Positions 1,924 through 38,626 of a stretch of 38,626 nucleotides of DNA are shown here, piece after piece. The notes beneath the pieces are model-generated. The model did not search any database, was not told where the DNA came from, and saw only the letters and a list, made by a program, of their open reading frames with translations. Where the stretch lies: positions 1 through 38,626 of the forward strand of contig CATLEQ010000006.1 of NCBI GenBank assembly GCA_949915905.1, given 5' to 3'. The translations under genes and the position numbers were made by a program. The stretch is from an uncultured Lachnospiraceae bacterium (GTDB lineage Bacteria; Bacillota; Clostridia; Lachnospirales; Lachnospiraceae). Every line of letters starts with the position of its first letter. Positions within the stretch are counted from its first letter, which is position 1.

Positions 1924-4017
1924 TTATTGAAGCAACTGCAATACGCCCTGCGGAACCTGGTTCGCCTGGGCGAGCATCGCCTGAGCAGCCTGAACGAGGA
2001 TGTTGTTCTTCGTGTAAGCCATCATTTCCTCGGCCATGTCAACGTCACGGATACGGCTCTCGGCAGCCGTGATATTCTCCGTTGTCACGCTCAAGTTGTT
2101 AATCGTGTGTTCCAAACGGTTCTGGATGGCACCCAAGTCACCTCTCTGAGAAGATACCGCATTGATAGCGTTTTTAATCTTATCAACAGCTGTCGTTGCA
2201 CCTGCCTGCGTAGAAATGTCAACATCACCAATGCCAAGAGATGCCGCGTTCATGTTCTTTACATTTACGGTCAATTGATTGAAATCCTCAGCTGTATCAC
2301 CAATCTGAAGTGTCAGAGCCTTTCCGGAACCAGGCGTATTGATGCTAAATACTTCCGCGAGTTTCTCCTTAGTGTCGTAAGTCTTCGTAGAATCATCCTT
2401 TTTGTGAATCGTGATTCCCATTTTCTTATCGCCGTTCGACGTATCATTTACACCTACGATAAAGTTTGTCGTATCACCGATTGCCTGAGAAATTTTACCA
2501 AGTGCAGTGTTAAGGTCGGTAGATGTAATATTCTTGGGGTCAAGAGCAGTCAAATCAACTGCACCGTCTGCTGTTTTATACTGGCTGTCTGCACCAACCG
2601 CCAACGTAACGGTCTTTCCATCCACAGTAATTTTCGTTCCATCTACAAGATCAGTTGTTTTCATTTCAAAAACGGTATTCGCAATGGCATTCGCCGCTCC
2701 TACCTGACCTTGCTGCGTAACGGTCGTACCTGCGGTATGGTTACCCTTAAATGCACCGGTCGCATCTTTCATAGAAAGGTCCCAGTCATAATTTCCCTTA
2801 ATATTCGTTGCTGTCGGAGCATCTGCCAACGTGAATTTCAAAGATTCATCACCGTCTTTGGCCACAGTATAATTGACAGTTCCAATCTTCAACTTGCCAT
2901 CTGTCAATTTTGCTTGTAAACCATCATATACGGCATCACGAATCGCTTTCGAGTCTGTGCCCGTAACATTGACATCCGTAACCAAATCAACGTTACCAAG
3001 CTTAAAGCTGATTTGAGCCGGATTCTCAACAGCGGCGGTTCCCGTGTTAGCCTCTGCTGTTACATTGCCAATCGTGATTACTCCTGTACTACCAGTTTTT
3101 GCGGCTGCATCTGACTTTGTAGGAGCCGCCTTCGGTGCACCGTCTGCGGCATTACCAGCATCAACTTTTCCAGCATTTTTTGCTGTATAAACAATGTTAG
3201 AGCCATCAGAAGCTATATCGTAGTCCGCCGAAGTCAATTTGCCAGCGATAAACGCCGCTAATTTCTCGGCATCGTTCGCATCAGCCACATTAATATCACC
3301 AGCCGCACCTACGGCATAATCCGTACCTCCTATAGTAATGTTATCGCCATCTACAAAATTATTGTCCACCGTAACAGCGCTCTTATATACCGCCTTGGTT
3401 GCCGGCGTTCCTTCTCCAGCTTCCGCAGTGATATTGGCAAAATTAACCTTGAACTCGGTCGCCTTTGTTCCCGAACCGCCGCCATCAAGAATCGTCTTAA
3501 GACCTGTATTTCCTACCGGATCTTCACCCGCGCCGAGCACGTCGGAAAGAATACGGTCAATACCCGCCACGGTCTTTCCACCGCCGCCTTGCTCCATGGA
3601 GCCATCGAGCAGATTAATGCCGTTAAAGTTCGTACTCTTTGCAATACGATTAATTTCATCTTTTAGAGATTTAACCTCGGCCTGCAAATTCTCACGGTCT
3701 ACCTCATCTGCATATGTTCCATTGGCGGACTGGTTTGCCAGTTCCACCATGCGGTTGAGCATGGAGTGTACTTCCGTCAGCGCACCTTCTGCCGTCTGCA
3801 CCAGGGAAATACCGTCATTGGCGTTCTTCTGCGCGGTCTTGAGTCCGGTAATCTGCGCGCGCATTTTTTCGGAAATGGCCAATCCTGCCGCGTCGTCACC
3901 CGCACGGTTGATTCTGTAACCGGATGACAGCTTTTCCAAGTTCTTGGAAACCGCGCTGTTATTATTTGTTAAATTTCTGTAAGAATTTAATGCTGCAATA
4001 TTGTGTTGAATTCTCAT
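1924..4017 (-). CDS. Flagellin (697 aa, large central variable region)
   Basis: Canonical N-terminus [56 protein letters not shown] and C-terminus [37 protein letters not shown] upstream of the ATG. Confidence 0.98.
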
Positions 4018-4226
4018 GATTTAAACCTCCTTGAATTTGTTGTTTAGAGTGCTTTCACTTCCTGCTACGGCACTTGTTACTTTTTTGTCTTCCGTCATTG
4101 CTCTTTGTCATTTTGTTTCCCGCGTCCTCAAAGTCCCGTCTGCCATGGCTTTTTTGCTGGAACCTTTTGGCGCGAATCTATTTCAACCGGCTCGCGATAC
4201 CGGGTGAAACCCATTTTTTACGCGCT

Positions 4227-4733
4227 CTATGCGTCACTTTCCTTTTCCGCATTCTTTCTTCCCGCCGTTCCTACAATCGTCCTTTTCGCTTCATCGTTGG
4301 CGATTCCACCGTTCATGATTCCGCCATTTAAGCTTTCCCAAATCTGCGCGAGTTCCCGTACCTGCGTCCGCAAAAGTTCCAGTTCCCGCCGTCTCAATTT
4401 ATGCTCCGGATTATCCAAAATCTCTCCCAATTGATATAGGACTCCGGCATAAATTTCCTGGCCGTCATGGTAATCCTCCCGTCTTTTCTCTACCTTCTGG
4501 AGATATTGCGCGTAGCGTTTCTTATCGGACGGCGAACGCTTCGGCTTTCGGTCTAACAATCCTTCGGGACGTTGTTCCCCGTCACGCTCCAGCACCTTTC
4601 CCCGCATAATCGAAATTTCCTTCGGTGCCTTGATGGAAATGCGAAACTGCGGCCCCGATTCCTTAAACACCTGCACCACCACGTCTTCCCCGATGGTAAC
4701 ATACTCCCCTGACTTCATCTGTAACGAAAGCAT
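4227..4733 (-). CDS. csrA: CsrA-family carbon storage regulator with a long C-terminal extension (start moved from 4763 to the internal ATG)
   Basis: MLSLQMKSGEYVTIGEDVVVQVFKESGPQFRISIKAPKEISIMRGKVLER matches the CsrA fold signature (APKE.S..R..V). RBS AGGGAGG lies just upstream of the 4731-4733 ATG. About 110 extra residues follow. Confidence 0.85.
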   Translation of the reverse strand: MLSLQMKSGEYVTIGEDVVVQVFKESGPQFRISIKAPKEISIMRGKVLERDGEQRPEGLLDRKPKRSPSDKKRYAQYLQKVEKRREDYHDGQEIYAGVLYQLGEILDNPEHKLRRRELELLRTQVRELAQIWESLNGGIMNGGIANDEAKRTIVGTAGRKNAEKESDA

Positions 4734-4759
4734 AATAGAAACCTCCCTATTTCTTTTAT

Positions 4760-4885
4760 TCAAGATTTACAATCATCCGGCAAACACGTGATTTCAAAAA
4801 CCCTCATCTCGCGATGGTCATCCACCGTTCCTACCATATTTTTCATTTGCCACCGACCCATAAATGCGTCTACAATGTAATCCAT
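4760..4885 (-). CDS. Possible small ORF (41 aa) between the left inverted repeat and csrA
   Basis: MDYIVDAFMGRWQMKNMVGTVDDHREMRVFEITCLPDDCKS with an upstream AGAGG. No recognised family. Confidence 0.3.
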   Translation of the reverse strand: MDYIVDAFMGRWQMKNMVGTVDDHREMRVFEITCLPDDCKS

Positions 4886-4922
4886 AAGGCATCCTCTGTA
4901 AGAACACCACGCCGCCATGTTT

Positions 4923-4948
4923 TTCACAGAATGCGCAATTCTGCGAAA
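4923..4948 (-). repeat. Left inverted repeat (IR-L) of putative invertible element
   Basis: Reverse complement TTTCGCAGAATTGCGCATTCTGTGAA matches IR-R at 25/26 positions, 22 contiguous. Confidence 0.9.
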
Positions 4949-4979
4949 ATCTTCAAAAATCCCTTGATTACGCGGGCTT

Positions 4980-6131
4980 TCAAGCCACCTGACCACAAAT
5001 CTGACCATAAAATTCTGAAAGCGTTTCCAATTGTTTTCTTTTTGAATCCATGGTAGGGTGAACGTAGCGATTCATGGTGATTTTTACATCAGAATGACCC
5101 AGAATTTCACAGAGCGATTTCACATCCATCCCGCTTTCAATGCAACTTGTGGCAAATGTGTGGCGTATCATATGAAAATTTCTACTCTCGATTTCCGCCA
5201 GGGAAAGTATTTTTTTGAATCGGTATTGCAGCGTTCTTGGCTCCATTGGCTTGTCCCCGCCAAACACATACGGCTGATTTTCGTGCAATGCGGTGAGCAG
5301 CTCCCCGACTTTCGTCGAAATGGGAATCGTCCTTTTTGAACTTTCGCTTTTCGGCTCCATTTCCATCAGGATTGTCTTCGTGGCCTGATTTTTCACCGCG
5401 ATTCTTTGCACCGTGCGCTCCACGGTCAGCGTCATTTCTTTCAAGTTAAAATCCGTCCAACGTAGTGCACACAATTCACCAAGCCGCAAACCCGTATATA
5501 AACATAAAACAAGGGCGGTTCCATATTTGTCCGGCGCATTATAAATAGAAGAAAACAATCGTAGACGTTCGGATTTACTAAACGTCTCCATTGTTTTCTT
5601 CTTTACTTTCATAACCGGCCTTTTCAAAATTGAAATTCGAAGTCCATATGTTTCATTGGCATGACGAATGATTTGATTCATGACGCAACAGACACTCCTC
5701 TGCAGGCTTTCCGAAACCTCATCTGAAAATAAGTGGTCAAAAATCTTGGATTGAAATTCTTCCTTGTCAATCTCCGATAAATGGCAAGAATCAAAAATCG
5801 CAGAAAGGTGCGTTCTATAAACCGTCTCATATTTCACATATGTCGAGTACTTACATTTTTCTCTTTTTTCCTCCAGCCACGCTTTTGCAACTTCAGAAAA
5901 TAAAACGGTTGCATGGGCATTTCCTACATCTTCCGCTTTTGCCCGGCTATCAGGATAAAGATTTTTCTGTGGGGTCAATTTTGCTGCAGTAAGCTTTTCT
6001 TTTGCTTCGGCATATGTACTTCCATAGACAGAGCGATACAAATACCGTCCTTTCTTCTCACTATACGTTTTATAACGACCTTCCCATCGCCCATCCACGC
6101 GTTTTCTTATGTTCTCTCCATGTCGTGCCAT
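4980..6131 (-). CDS. Tyrosine recombinase / site-specific integrase (Tn916 Int-like architecture); candidate DNA invertase
   Basis: MARHGENIRKRVDGRWEGRYKTYSEKKGRYLYRSVYG (N-terminal arm-binding type), then catalytic motifs 'TGLRLGELCALRW', 'HMIRHTFATSC', 'LGHSDVKITMNRYVH'. Start moved to the ATG after GAAAGGAAG. Confidence 0.93.
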   Translation of the reverse strand: MARHGENIRKRVDGRWEGRYKTYSEKKGRYLYRSVYGSTYAEAKEKLTAAKLTPQKNLYPDSRAKAEDVGNAHATVLFSEVAKAWLEEKREKCKYSTYVKYETVYRTHLSAIFDSCHLSEIDKEEFQSKIFDHLFSDEVSESLQRSVCCVMNQIIRHANETYGLRISILKRPVMKVKKKTMETFSKSERLRLFSSIYNAPDKYGTALVLCLYTGLRLGELCALRWTDFNLKEMTLTVERTVQRIAVKNQATKTILMEMEPKSESSKRTIPISTKVGELLTALHENQPYVFGGDKPMEPRTLQYRFKKILSLAEIESRNFHMIRHTFATSCIESGMDVKSLCEILGHSDVKITMNRYVHPTMDSKRKQLETLSEFYGQICGQVA

Positions 6132-6294
6132 GTTATTTCTTCCTTTCGTTCCTATATCAGAGATTCCCTCCTCCGAAGATTTTGACCACAAAAATGACCA
6201 CATTTACCACTTTCCGCGTATTTTTCGCCATATGTTTCCACGAAACACCGGCTATTTGACCATATGATTTTGATAAAAACTTTTGAAAAGATAT

Positions 6295-6323
6295 TAACTT
6301 CTGAAAAAAGATGCCGATATAAT
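6295..6323 (+). promoter_or_regulatory. Sigma28/sigmaD-like promoter, outward facing inside the putative invertible element (overlaps a sigmaA-like TATAAT)
   Basis: TAAC (6295-6298) - N14 - GCCGATAT (6313-6320). Bacillus sigmaD consensus is TAAA-N15-GCCGATAT. An overlapping TTAACT-N18-TATAAT is also present. Confidence 0.65.
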
Positions 6324-6353
6324 ACGTGAAGATAAGAATTACAGTTCATCTTG

Positions 6354-6379
6354 TTTCGCAGAATTGCGCATTCTGCGAA
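6354..6379 (+). repeat. Right inverted repeat (IR-R) of putative invertible element
   Basis: TTTCGCAGAATTGCGCATTCTGCGAA; inverted copy of 4923-4948. Confidence 0.9.
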
Positions 6380-6386
6380 TTTTTTT
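6355..6386 (+). terminator. Intrinsic terminator formed by IR-R plus an external T-tract
   Basis: TTCGCAGAAT-TGCGC-ATTCTGCGAA: perfect 10-bp stem, 5-nt loop, followed directly by T7 (6380-6386). Confidence 0.75.
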
Positions 6387-6513: not shown

Positions 6514-6558
6514 GAACAAAGAGTTTTGCTTGCGAAACTCTCGCGCCGCGAGCGCGGT
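6514..6558. repeat. REP-like palindromic intergenic repeat, copy 1
   Basis: GAACAAAGAGTTTTGCTTGCGAAACTCTCGCGCCGCGAGCGCGG; near-identical to 10844-10888. Confidence 0.7.
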
Positions 6559-10843: not shown

Positions 10844-10888
10844 GAAACAAAGAGTTTCGCCCGCGAAACTCTCGCGCCGGAGCGCGGC
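10844..10888. repeat. REP-like palindromic intergenic repeat, copy 2
   Basis: GAAACAAAGAGTTTCGCCCGCGAAACTCTCGCGCCGGAGCGCGG, containing the perfect hairpin AGAGTTTCGC/GCGAAACTCT. Confidence 0.7.
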
Positions 10889-30886: not shown

Positions 30887-33800
30887 TTATTTTCCACCTG
30901 CCGTCTGTTCTTTGCTTTCCTCCTGCGCGAGCTTCTCCTTTAATTCATGAATCCGCTCCTGATGTTTCTTTCTGCTCTTCGTGTAGAATGCCAACACGAT
31001 TAATGCAATCAGCACGACCAGGAAGTGGAAGATACAGCAGGCGTGGTCAAGATCCGCATTTGCCAAAGGTGTCTCTTCGTCCTCGATTTCCGTCAGGTCA
31101 TAGCCATTTTCCGTCGGTGTCACTTCCGCCTCAATCGGTGCCAATGGTACCGGAGTCGGCGCGACCGGTATGACTGCCGCCGGTACTACCGGAGCCGGAG
31201 CCGCCGGTGCTGCCGGTGCCGCTGGAGCCGCCGGTGCTGCCGGAACTGCCGGTGCCACCGGTATGGTCGGTACTACAATGACTCCAGGTATCAGCGTGTA
31301 AGTTACCGTAAATGTCAGGTCACTTGCCGGCATGCCGTCCTCGTTGCTGCTAATTGAGCCGTAATCCGGTGTAAATCCGTCAATTTCTGGCGAAGTCACC
31401 GTAAATGTCGTTCCGGCCGCCATGATTCCCACGTAATCCGGTGCCACCGAGTCGCCCGCCGCGTTCACATAACGAATCGTCAGCGTATAGTATGGATCCA
31501 CGTCCTGCCTGTTCTCGCCCGGTGTTGTTCCCGGTACGATTGGTTCTTCTGGATTTTCCGGCTCTTCCGGCTCTTCCGGGTTCTGCGGAGTATCCGGGTT
31601 CGGAATCGGATCCACCGTCGCCGTCGCCACGTTCAGCACGCTTCCCACCTCGCAATCAGCCTGCGTCACTTCGTACCTCGCCGTAAATGTCTCGCTCGCT
31701 CCCGGTGCCAGTGTCGCCACCGTCCATTCATCGTTCGTCAACTCGTCAGTCACGACCACGTTTTCAAGCGTCAGGTTTCCGTCGTTCGTCACGGTGATGC
31801 TGTAGGTAATCTCCTCGCCCAGCACGTATGCCCTTCCGTTTGCCGGCGTGCCGGTCGTCGTCTTGGTAATGGTCGAATGTGCCACTGCCTCTTCCAGCTC
31901 CCCGTTCTCCGCGGTAACCGTCTCCTCGTCCCTTGCCTCAATCGGCTCTCCGTTCGGATCCGTTCCCTCTGCCGTCGCCACGTTGGTAATGCTGCCTCTG
32001 ATGATGTCGGCTTCCGTCACAATGTACGTTACCGTGATTTCCTGAGACGCGTTCGGCTCCAAATCACCTGCCTGAATCTGATCCCCGGTCAGGTCATCCG
32101 TTACCTCAACGCCTTCCATCGTCACATTTCCATTATTTACCACGCGAATGGTATATTCAATTACATCTCCCACGCCATATGCATTTTCAGATGCGGCCGC
32201 CGTCTTCTCCACGAAAAGACTTGGCTACGGTGTCGAAATCGGCGCGTCTTCCTCGCCAGGATCAACCTCCGGCTCGATTGGCGGTAACGGTTCCTCCGGA
32301 TTTGGATTCGGGTCTGGAATCGAATCTGCCGTCGCAATCGCCACGTTTGTCACGACTCCGTTCCTCGTCAAAATGTCTTCTTCCGTCACCACGTATGTCG
32401 CGGTAAATGTCTCGCTCGCTTCCGGTGCCAATGTTTCTACCGTCCACACGTCGCCCGTCAGCTCGTCGCTCACTACTACGTTTTTTGCCGTCAGGTTTCC
32501 GACATTGCTTACCGTGATTTCATAGGAAATCGTCTCACCCAACCCGTAAACCGCTCCGTTTTCCGGTTCATTGGTCACACGCTTCTCCACGTTCAGCCTA
32601 TAGTCCGCGTCGTCGGTCGGTGTCTCTACCTCTCCCGGCACCACGTCGTCCGGATTCTCCGGGTCAATCGGCGGCGTATCTGGATCATCGGTCGTACCGC
32701 CGCTGACGGTCGCCACGTTCGCCACGCTTCCTGCAAGGATGTCATCCTCCGTCACCACGTAGCTTCCGTGCAATGTTATGCTACCCTTTGGTGTCGTATC
32801 ATCGTTTGCCAATACCGCGTCCTTCGGTGCCAGCGTGAGGTTCTGCCAATTCTCGCCTTCTGCCATTTCAAATCCATCCAGCAAGTCAACTACGTCAAAT
32901 CCTCTTACCGTCAGGTTGCCCTCGTTCGTCACCGTGATTTCATAATGAATCGTCTCGTTCAAAGCATAACCCGTGCCATTTGCCGGTGCGCTCGTCACGC
33001 GCTTTTCCACCACGAGCTTCGCATCCGCCGGGTCGGTTTCGTCTGTCTCGCTGCCCGGTACTACGTCGTCCGGATCCTCCGGGTCAATCGGCTTCTCTTC
33101 GTCCGGGTTCTCCGGATCCGGAATCTTGCCGCCCGTGACCGTGGCCGTATTCATGACCTGGCCGCGAATCACGTCCGCCTCCGTCACCGTGTACTGCGTA
33201 CGCAGCACGTTTGACGTCTCACCCGGTTTCAGTTCATCCACCGTCCAGCTTGCATTTGTCAGCTCATCCTCCACCACGATATCCTTCATCGTTACGTTTC
33301 CGGTATTCTTCACCGTGATTTCGTAGGAAATGGTTTCGCCCAGTGCATAAGTCTGGCCATTTGCCGGCGTGCTTACGCTCTTCTTCTCAACCTCGACCTT
33401 GCCGTCCGGCTCGTCGATTTTTTCAACCACGTCCTCGTCGGTAAATGTTTTTTCAATATCGCTAAATGCCGCCGTCACCGTGTTGCTAAAGCTTCCGTTC
33501 AATATGTCGGCCTCTTTTACCGTGTAGGTGGCCGTCGTGGTAACCTTGGCTCCCGGCTCCACGTTTTCGAATTTGCTCTCGCCGGTAATCCTCACGCCGT
33601 TCTGCTCGGTGATCGTGATATCCTTCGCCACATCGTAAATGTTTGTCACTTCGATGTTAAATGTAATCACGTCGCCGATTCCGTAAGTGATGTCATCGTG
33701 AGTCTTCTTCACTACCTTCTCCGGGTCAATCGGATCCTCGCCCGTGCCATCCGTTACGGTCAAATCACCCACCGTTTCCTTAACCGTATAGTTGCTTTCC

Positions 33801-36800
33801 TTTGCAATGGTAATTCCTGCCGCACTTGCCTGCCCCCACTTAATCTCATAGGTGTTCTTGCTCGTTCCTACAAGGGTCTGGGTGCCGTTCACTTCAAAAG
33901 CCGCATCCTCGCCGGATACCCAGCCGGTAATCGTTCCCGGCTCTGTAAGTGCCGCGCCGTCATACGTCTTGCTTCCGCTTCCCGTCGTAACGGTCAGTTC
34001 CTTCGGGGTAACGGTTATCTTCTCCTCAGCCGTCGCATATCCATCATAGTTCGGATTCGATGCCCTTACGTAGATGACGTCAATAGAATCCTCCACGTTC
34101 GTCGCCATGATGTCCTGACGATTTTGGATCCAATTTTCATTGTCCAAGCTATACTCAATCGTAAACTGGTCTCTTCCGTTGCCCAGCGTGCTCGTCGCAA
34201 CCGCCTCGCCCGCATAGTAGGCCGAACCCTTATAAGCCTCCACGACATCTTCGCCGGTCAGAGTAACGTCACCCTTCTCTACGACTTCGTCCATGGATGC
34301 CGGCTTAATCTTGAAGCTGCCCGTCTCAAACTTGACATCATAGTTCTCTGTGGTAACCGTCTGAGTATTTCCTTCCTTACGGATTACCAACGCATTTTCA
34401 TCCGCAATCGCCGTTGTATAAGTCGGATTTGCCTCTGTGTTCGCATCCGTCTCCGTGCGGCTTGCGCTGACGCCGGTAATCTCCTCGCCTTCCGCCAGTT
34501 CTCCGCTCGTTATCTCGTAACCGCTGATGGTGTGCGGTTGCCCGTCATAAGTAATGTCTTCACTGCCGTTTGCCGTGATGGTCAACGGCCGCTTCGTAAT
34601 CTGAACGGTTACGGCTATCGTTTCCGTGTCCGTATAGTTCGGGTTCGTCGCATATACATAAACCGTATACGTTCCGGCTTCCGTGAAGGACGGCTTTTCC
34701 GTGGACCATTCTTTCTCGTTACCCTCGTCCGTGCTATAATGCAGCGTCGAACCATCCTCCTTTGATGCCTTCACCTGAACCAGCTCATCGTGCGCTTTTC
34801 CGTCATACATGATCGTGTTGCCTGCGCCCGCCACATTAATAACGCTATTGTCCGATGCCGCCGTAATCGTGAACGTAGCTTTCGTTACTTTGACATTATA
34901 ATTCGAATTAGCCGTATAAACAGCATCCAGTACATCCGAATGCGGCCCTACATTCTCTGCATCTTCTGCACCCTTATTCGTACGTACAAAAGTAATCTCG
35001 CCCAGGTCGTCTTTGCTTATTAACTGGCCGCTCTCTAACAGTTCACTTACTGTCGTTCCGGTAAATTCAGGATCATCTTGACCGTATACTTTACTTGCCG
35101 CCTTTACAATAATGCTGACTTCCCTCGGGTTGATGGTCAAAACCTGCGTTCCCGGCAAAGCACCCGTGAAGTTATCTCCGGTCACACGCACGTCGATAAT
35201 CTTGCTTTCCGAAACGTCTGTCGCCGTAATTTCAGCCGGATTGATCGTCCATCCGCTTTCTCCCGGTTCGGTTTCACCCTCGCCACGGACACGGTACTCC
35301 ACTTTCAACCTGCCTGCTGCCAGTTCTTCCTTCAACTTCTGCTCGCCCAGGGTTCCGCCCAATATCGCCGTTCCCGCTGCATGCGGCTGTCCGTCATAAG
35401 TTTTCTCTACGGGAGTCGGTGTCAAAGTAACCAGGTCACTCTCTCTGATATCCACAGGATTAATTACAAGATTTCCTTTCTCCGTCTCAATCTTATAGTT
35501 TCTCGTAGTATCTACCGTTTCACCGGCAACTTCCTTTGTCACCGTGATGCCCGTCTCGTTAATCGTCGTCGGATACGTACCAACATTCGTTCCTTCTCCA
35601 CTGACTACGACACCCGCAAGCGTTTCACCTGCTACCGGTCTAGCCTCATCAGTATAATCCCATGTTGTTACGCTCTTCTTTGTACCGTCATACACAAACG
35701 TACCATCATCTGCCTTGAGCGTCAAAGTAATCGGTGTTATGGTAATCTTCTGCGTGCCCGTAACCTCGCCCTCATAATTCGGGCTGGTCACTCTGACGTT
35801 AATTTCTCTGGAGTCAGATACATTCGTCGCCGTGATTTCGGTAATATCCGTCGTCCAGCTATTCTCGTCATTGGCATCTTTCTGGTATTCGATTGTCAAA
35901 GTGCCATTGTCATTCGGGCGAGTGCTCGTAGCCGTCGCTACATTCGCCTGCTGCGCCTCACCGTTATATGTTCCGGTCTTATCGCTCGTCGTCAGCGTTA
36001 CGAAAGTATTGATATCCTTGGCTCTTACAATCTCGAAATTACCCTTTTCATATCTCACGGTATAGTTGTTGGTGGAGTCCTCGCCTTCCTGGCCTTGCGC
36101 CACCGGTGCCTTGGTTACCTTGAACGTATCTTTGCCTGTAACCACCGTATCATACTTACCAACGTTTGTTTCCGTCCTGGCCGCTTCGATGCCCGTGATT
36201 GTCTCAGTGCCCGGAAGCTCACCTTTCTCTACCTTGACCGTATAACCCTCTACCGCTCTCGGTTGTCCGTCATACTCCGTTTGAACCGGGTCACCGCTCT
36301 TGGCCGTAATTACCAGTTCCGCCCGCTTAACAGTCATCGTCTGCGTGGTCGTCGCATATCCATCATAATTCGAATGTGATGCCCGCACGTAAACCGTTAT
36401 CGGTTCGCCCGGCTCGGTCGCATTAATCCGGGTAATCAATTCCGGCGATTCCTTCCAGTCGGCTTCCGTACCATTCTCAGTCAGACTATACTCAATCTTG
36501 AATTCATCATCTTTTGACAAATTCGAAGTTGCCGCCGCCGTTCCTGCCGCAAGCGCCCTGCCATTGTAATACTGCTCTACATTATTTCCTTTCAGGGAGA
36601 CGATATTTTTATCCTCCGCCGATGCCTTGGTAATCTCAAATTCGCCGTCTACAAAATGAATCACGTAGTTATTTTTTGTAGATTTTCCGTCCTCGTCCTT
36701 AATGTCATAACTAATTCTGCTACCCTCGGTTACCTTCGTTGGATATTTGCCGACGTTCGTTCCCTTGCCTTCCACCACAAGACCAGTTAACTCTTCGCCA

Positions 36801-38626
36801 TTTACCAATTTCATATCACTTGTAATGCTATATCCATCACTCGCGACAGCATGCTCTTTTCCATCATAAACAATGGCTGACGTGTTGCCGCTATCGGGAT
36901 AACTTGATGCAGTAATCGTCACTTCACGCTTATTAATGGTTATCGTTCCCTCTACTACTTCCGTATCCTCATAATTCGGATTGGCCGCGTACACATAAAT
37001 CTTGTACTCACCTGCATCCTTGAATGTAGGCATCGTAGTAGACCACTTATTTGTATCCGACTTATCCGCATCTTTTTCCTTGCTAAAGTAGAGTGTTGAA
37101 CTCTTCTTCGTTGCTGATGCACTAGCCAGACCATATGATTCACCATCATAGGTAACAACTGTATTTTCTACATTAATTGCATTTTCATTTGTTCTCTTGA
37201 TGGTAAAGGTTCCTTTTTCTACTTCTTTAATCTCATAATTCGGGTTCAGGTTTTCGCATTCTGCATCTAACACACCTAAATACTCGCCAACATCTTCTAC
37301 TCCGCTATTCGTACGAGAGTATTCAATTGTCCCAAGGTCATCACCATCTACAAGGCCGGATTCTTCATCATCCTTTACCTTGTCAACTGTACCGGTAAAC
37401 TTAGGCTCTTTCTCCCCATAGTTCTTGGATTTATCATCCACCTTGATGACAACCGGCCGCTTTGTAATTTCCAGAGTCTGCTCACCTGACAACGTATCAC
37501 TAAAGTTGTCACTGGTTACCCGCACTTCAATCGTAATTGGCCCATCATTCACATTGGTCGCGGTAATGGAAGCCCAATTCTCGGTCCAATCATTTTCTTC
37601 CTGCCCTTTCGCAACTTTTACGCGGTACTCAATCTTCAGGCCTTTCGCCAACGCTGCAAACTCTTCCGCTGTCAACGTGGAGTCTTCCGCGTTGCTTACC
37701 GTTGCCTGGCCTGCCGAATGCGGCTGTCCATCATACACCTCGCTTACATCAACCGTATTCAAGGCTGCCAGATTACTTGTTTCAAACGCGGCCTTGGCAA
37801 TTGTAAACGAACCCGCCTTTGTCTCTACGATATAATTGTTTGTAGAGTCTTCCGGCTTGCCATTAACCGTCTTCGTTATCTTTGCCGTTCCATCAACGGT
37901 TGTATCGTATTGACCCGCATTCGTCTTCATAGAATCTACGGAAACTCCTGCAAGTTCCTCACCGGCTACAAGTCCGTCAACCGTATATCCAAGATATCCC
38001 GTTGACAAATCCGTCTTGACACCATGCTCTTTTCCATCATACGTAAACGGTTCTACAACTGAACCAGCCGTAATCGTCAATGGCTTTTTAGCGATTGTGA
38101 ACGTATTTTCCTCAAACGTGATGTCATAGTTTGCGGTAGGTACGACACTGCCATCTGCCTTGGTTATTTGGAAACTGTCAGTCTTCTGAGCTGTTGCCTT
38201 ATAACCGCTACCTGCATTCGTCTTCTTTCCAGTCACGGAAATTCCAGACAAATTTTCTCCGGCTACCATCTGGCCGTCAATATCATAATCCTCCGGGCCT
38301 TGCTCCTGGCCATTATAGATATAGGAGCCGTCCTTCGGCTTAACGGTCAGCGAAATCGGTTTGATTTTTACATAAGAGCCATAAACGCTAGAAATTACAC
38401 TTCCATTTACTACCCTTACATAAACCGGATATTTTCCGTCATTATCAACGGTAACGTCCGCGTACTCTAAAGCATTTCCCGTCCAACCGTTTTTTCCATT
38501 TACAGAATATTGAACAACATCTCCCTCCTTCGCCTCAAACGTTACCTTCACGCCATGGGACTGGCCGTCATACGTTCCCTCATAAGGCGTTACACTGACC
38601 TCATCCTCGTCAAAGCTTCTCTTCCA
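30887..38626 (-). CDS. Giant repetitive surface protein (MBG-like YDG repeats, then DUF11/DUF7507-like repeats, Pro/Ala-rich stalk, C-terminal anchor), 5' end beyond window; interrupted by one in-frame TAG at 32225-32227
   Basis: ORFs 32225..38551 and 30887..32212 are in the same frame (38551-32212 = 6339 = 3x2113), separated only by TAG. The frame is open to the window edge. C-terminus ETPLANADLDHACCIFHFLVVLIALIVLAFYTKSRKKHQERIHELKEKL. Confidence 0.85.

Follow-up and report, generated by a model that had tools for sequence, protein, structure and literature searches.

A putative self-inverting cassette with a sigma28-type promoter upstream of a csrA-flagellin operon in a Lachnospiraceae genome

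Introduction

Why would a flagellar-type promoter lie beside a flagellin operon and point away from it? This question is raised by the 38,626-nucleotide stretch analysed here (hereafter the window), which is contig C6 of an uncultured Lachnospiraceae genome (G000; a 3.9-Mb assembly of 497 contigs, 75% complete). On its minus strand is an operon whose first gene is csrA-like (4227..4733; 168 aa, PF02599) and which includes a flagellin gene (1924..4017; 697 aa, PF00669 and PF00700). An initial annotation had proposed that the outward promoter upstream of this operon is one half of an inversion switch, captured in the OFF phase. As described below, comparison of related sequences makes it highly probable that positions 4923-6379 form a self-inverting sigma28-promoter cassette for csrA-flagellin, present here in the OFF orientation.

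Results

The 1.46-kb segment at 4923-6379 is bounded by 25-bp inverted palindromic repeats. One of these recombination sites, IR-R (6355..6379), consists of the arms TTCGCAGAA and TTCTGCGAA around a 7-bp centre; the second, IR-L (4923..4947), is inverted relative to it and has the same centre and one arm mismatch. Between them, on the minus strand, lies a tyrosine recombinase gene (4980..6203), a 407-aa ORF with a likely start (MARHGEN) at 6131 and with PF00589 and PF14659 domains. Its reading frame is open and it retains the catalytic R-K-H-R-H/W-Y set of the tyrosine recombinase family; indeed, R240, K285, H344, R347, H370 and Y380 are invariant across 43 relatives. The nearest solved structure is Tn1549 Int, the chains of which are titled only 'Int protein' and which we take to originate from Tn1549. 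The likeness to Tn916/Tn1549-type integrases includes sequence similarity to Tn1549 Int, the catalytic residues and probable arm-site repeats, namely paired GGTCA direct repeats beside both ends of the recombinase gene (6183..6199 on its 5′ side and 4990..5006 on its 3′ side, both minus strand). In contrast to those transposons, no other transposon genes are found between the repeats. Since the sites are inverted, recombination would flip the segment rather than excise it. Just beyond IR-R is a T7 tract (6380..6386, plus strand), and in the OFF transcript IR-R and this tract together fold into a hairpin that resembles a terminator. The window also contains two related intergenic palindromic repeats of the form AGAGTTT(T/C)GC..GCGAAACTCT (6520-6541 and 10851-10872) and, on the minus strand at 32225-38551, an ORF of 2108 aa.

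The promoter itself, TTAA-N15-GCCGATAT (6294..6320, plus strand), faces outward from the element, with csrA-flagellin behind it. It is equally readable as TAAC-N14-GCCGATAT, with TAAC at 6295-6298 and GCCGATAT at 6313-6320, and differs by one mismatch from TAAA-N14/15-GCCGATAT. The promoter, which ends 34 bp short of IR-R at 6355, is part of the sequence TTAACTTCTGAAAAAAGATGCCGATATAATA (6294-6324) between the start of the recombinase gene and IR-R. The segment has the anatomy of an invertible promoter, with inverted repeats enclosing a promoter upstream of a target operon. The initial annotation had placed the TAAC-N14 motif at 6295-6320, about 35 bp inside IR-R, in agreement with the position and the 34 bp measured here, and had seen no such motif on the minus strand of the csrA and flagellin leaders. 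A scan allowing up to three mismatches bore this out: neither the csrA leader (4734-4922) nor the flagellin leader (4018-4226) contained a minus-strand sigma28-like match, and the closest ones on that strand fell within coding sequence.

Elements of the same type were found at four csrA-flagellin loci in two species: the window, a second csrA locus of the same genome (L007, on C302) and two loci of a congeneric genome (L045 and L046). All four have a Tn1549-Int-type tyrosine recombinase between inverted palindromic sites, and in all four a T-run adjoins the distal repeat while none is found outside IR-L. The four recombinases form one clade (support 100/99) made up of two ortholog pairs, each spanning the two species, and therefore the arrangement is older than the split of these species. 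Within the promoter block, TTAACTTC[TC]GAAA[AG]AAGATGCCGATATA, 27 of 30 columns are invariant in all four elements, as compared to a segment mean of 9 elsewhere. Searches of viral contigs for the exact promoter pattern and for close relatives returned no match, so there is no sign of the element being a phage gene set; a scan of genome contigs found distant relatives only.

Other kinds of switch occupy the same position at further csrA-flagellin loci. At L164 (G009:C12), L165 (G000:C211) and L166 (G006:C16), a serine recombinase gene (PF00239) adjoins a segment of about 150 bp between GGTTCAAAAAGTACACTTT-type inverted repeats, which are diverged in L166, and the segment carries TTAA-N15-GCCGATAATA facing away from csrA. 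Similarly, at L168 (G000:C313, 2727-3873) the gene next to the segment (about 230 bp, bounded by 28-bp repeats) encodes a 289-aa Xer-like recombinase, and in this segment TTAT-N15-GCCGATAT faces away from csrA. The recombinases at the switches of G000 are thus of three kinds: an internal integrase-type tyrosine enzyme, an external serine enzyme and an external Xer-like enzyme. TTA-N16-GCCGATA is common to all eight flagellin switches of these three kinds. Contig C211 ends in csrA and C208 begins in csrA, and the two may be halves of one locus. Across the genus and 397 genomes of the family, the switch type of csrA is essentially found in three species. It is worth noting as a separate observation that three species have a gene for an Xer-like recombinase of 301-303 aa at a distance of about 2.5-3.5 kb from non-switch flagellins (L169 9687-10592, L170 12697-13608 and L171 9649-10560).

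A wider family of recombinase cassettes bears on which sigma factor would read the window promoter. In 348 genomes of the family, about 40 further recombinase genes were found, most of them flanked by inverted palindromic sites with the pattern TTTCGYAGA-N9-TCTGCGAAA. The non-flagellar members carry an outward sigmaA promoter, TTGACA-N17-TATAAT, between the 5′ repeat and the recombinase; sigmaA scores of at least 10/12 were obtained outward in 25 of 39 elements, inward in 2 of 39, and in 4% of randomised segments. It is at this position of its sister elements that the flagellar clade carries the sigma28-type promoter. In the window, however, a sigmaA-like -10 (TATAAT, 6318..6323, plus strand) overlaps the sigma28 -10 and can be read as TTAACT-N18-TATAAT (score 10/12). 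This match and the sigmaA promoters of the sister elements favour an alternative in which the invertible promoter is real but is read by sigmaA, making the switch independent of the flagellar hierarchy. We regard this as unlikely. The spacer is 18 bp, where most relatives have 17, and TATAAT has decayed to TATAGT in two of the four elements (L045 and L046), whereas GCCGATAT is constant in all four; moreover, the serine and Xer-type switches retain GCCGATA but have no TATAAT at the overlapping -10 position.

Sigma28 is the likelier reader because FliA is present and because similar promoters occur at fixed flagellar genes. FliA is found above the curated cut-off in G000, G006 and G009, and the combination of this gene with a TAAA-N14/15-GCCGATAA-like sequence would place the window promoter in the sigma28/FliA class. 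Non-switch flagellins are preceded, 200-223 nt before their ATG, by TTAACTTTTT...TTCGATAATA (the TTAACTT part in 3 of 5), and fliD of G009 has TTAACTTATTATCAAACCGTGCCGATAAAATA upstream. The flagellar sigma reading of the initial annotation is strengthened by these promoters and by the encoded FliA. In a genome-wide count the bare motif was not enriched: TTAA-N14-16-GCCGATA occurs 6 times in the genome and the reversed control also 6 times, and across the genus the motif is no more frequent than the reversed control. Motif counts by themselves were consequently dropped as evidence.

Is the element still able to invert? All eight flagellin switches are assembled OFF, with no ON copy among them, and at the four tyrosine-type loci the recombinase gene is co-oriented with csrA. 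Both observations would suit a fixed relic that no longer inverts, its csrA-flagellin operon being either silent or expressed through transcription that runs on from the recombinase gene. Within the genome, inverted-repeat matches occur only on C6, C32 and C302, and no contig has the alternative orientation. We nevertheless consider a relic improbable, given the intact catalytic residues and open frame of the recombinase and the retention of the promoter across two species. In addition, among 36 elements the site centres differ within an element at 7 of 281 positions and the arms at 57 of 648, while 32 different centres are found between elements, a comparison in which a few of the 36 elements are probably mis-registered. 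Centres that match within an element and vary between elements are a requirement of strand exchange by a tyrosine recombinase.

Relatives also occur in both orientations at homologous genes, although most other elements are assembled OFF. L085, L090 and L115, which lie at genes other than csrA-flagellin, are three relatives in the ON orientation. For example, the target gene of L085 is on the promoter side, and the homologous gene is on the opposite side in seven relatives; L090 (NusG-like, then aminotransferase) is oriented oppositely to L053 and L089, and L115 oppositely to L048, L051 and L104 at homologous loci. These assignments were made from homologous target genes, an automatic call by nearest gene having been dropped as too noisy (15 of 39 'both'); L098, the repeats of which are not canonical, was left out. 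The proposal of an invertible promoter in the OFF phase, made at the outset, thus gains from several directions: the block is kept in four csrA-flagellin elements while non-flagellar ones carry sigmaA promoters, the family shows both orientations, and the recombinase has a complete catalytic set.

Two side observations concern the same family. A third copy of the element in the genome (L006, G000:C32, 7666-9190) has a sigmaA promoter, TTGCAA-N17-TATAAT, and an ambiguous orientation, the promoter facing a glycosidase-like gene with an exopolysaccharide (Pel-like) operon on the other side. Directly after many elements (L049, L084-L088, L110 and L113) there is a gene family starting near KTVYQYN, one member of which has a weak match to Cas12f1-like TNB.

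Conservation in the four flagellar elements spans the -35 to -10 spacer as well as the unchanged GCCGATAT, a pattern that might suggest a recombination accessory site with no promoter function. We judge this very unlikely, since the serine and Xer-type switches share TTA, GCCGATA and their spacing with the element but not the spacer sequence, and the same type of sequence precedes fliD and non-switch flagellins. A chance match to the sigma28 consensus, to which the equal count of the reversed control might point, is barely credible: when the 201-nt window segment is randomised 3000 times by a first-order Markov model, only 10 of the resulting sequences reach the motif's score (5-10 of 3000 for each of the four elements), and the motif stands above chance because its place and orientation recur in four elements and four other switches.

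Discussion

From these patterns we infer that the locus does invert, that its promoter depends on sigma28, that transcription terminates at IR-R and that flagellin is phase-variable. In the mechanism that we propose, the cassette's own tyrosine recombinase would pair IR-L with IR-R through their common 7-bp centre and invert the 1.46-kb segment. In the OFF orientation the FliA/sigma28 promoter would send transcripts outward, over the IR-R hairpin and the T7 tract, and these probably end there; csrA-flagellin would be left with no flagellar promoter, although read-through from the co-oriented recombinase gene could leak some flagellin expression. In the ON orientation the promoter would read into csrA and flagellin by way of IR-L, a repeat with no T-run on its far side. 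Taking a start 7 nt past the -10, the predicted 5′ end of the ON transcript would lie about 242 nt upstream of the csrA ATG, in near agreement with the approximately 245 nt forecast by the initial annotation.

This layout resembles the Salmonella H segment (Hin, fljBA), in which a recombinase gene and the promoter of an alternative flagellin are likewise together in an invertible segment, with the flagellin operon outside it. There the flagellin operon includes fljA (PMC8306008), and here csrA takes that place, so that in both systems the flagellin shares its transcript with a gene that may regulate other flagellins. Hin is a serine recombinase, however, whereas the window enzyme is an integrase-type tyrosine recombinase (PF00589), serine enzymes (PF00239) being found instead at L164-L166. 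The sites, 25 bp long and palindromic around a 7-bp centre, also set it apart from the H segment, as do the use of csrA rather than fljA and the presence of several independent switches in one genome. By analogy, the window element would be Hin-like in its working, but its tyrosine recombinase places it outside the Hin family. The RecV switch of Clostridioides difficile, also a clostridial gut bacterium, likewise relies on recombinase-driven inversion of DNA in front of flagellar genes; it acts on the flgB leader, has no functional promoter and works via Rho (PMC7446863). Unlike that promoterless leader, the segment described here has a promoter-like block and its own recombinase, and precedes csrA-flagellin.

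More broadly, the element fits the inverton class (PMC11868660, PMC11892184), in which inverted repeats enclose a promoter, with surface genes and a recombinase close by. Among the invertons identified by PhaseFinder, group 139 is similar in being mostly from Clostridia and linked to tyrosine-type integrases (PMC11892184). The element differs from these in having the recombinase inside the inverted segment and a sigma28 promoter. The arrangement was not found reported in the open literature, an absence that is not proven.

The switch CsrA has a CsrA domain and a C-terminal extension of about 115 aa with no Pfam match, and a housekeeping csrA adjoins fliW on the main flagellar contig. In non-switch flagellin leaders a GGA is found both in a hairpin near -40 and at the ribosome-binding site, as would be expected for CsrA control; the hairpin is absent from the six switch-linked leaders examined. 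Taken with the dedicated csrA, this pattern is reminiscent of Salmonella fljBA (PMC8306008). R6 and R7 of canonical CsrA are functionally important residues. The switch CsrA reads M6 and K7 in their place, and this replacement weakens the case for a plain FljA-like repressor. Only as a hypothesis, drawn from analogy, would we suggest that the switch CsrA may repress the fixed flagellins.

Tentatively, and with rather less than even confidence, we suggest that this presumed gut bacterium has four or more paralogous csrA-flagellin operons, each under its own sigma28 switch, and that three unrelated recombinases serve these switches. This would amount to a default-OFF combinatorial antigen switch, the CsrA of which may tune or repress the fixed flagellins in the manner of FljA. 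Among commensal gut bacteria, flagellins act as major immune antigens. If this is true, several switched flagellin operons would give antigen variation like the phase variation of Salmonella, but with more alleles, and the repeated use of unrelated recombinases to flip one type of promoter ahead of one type of operon would be a clear case of convergent gene control.
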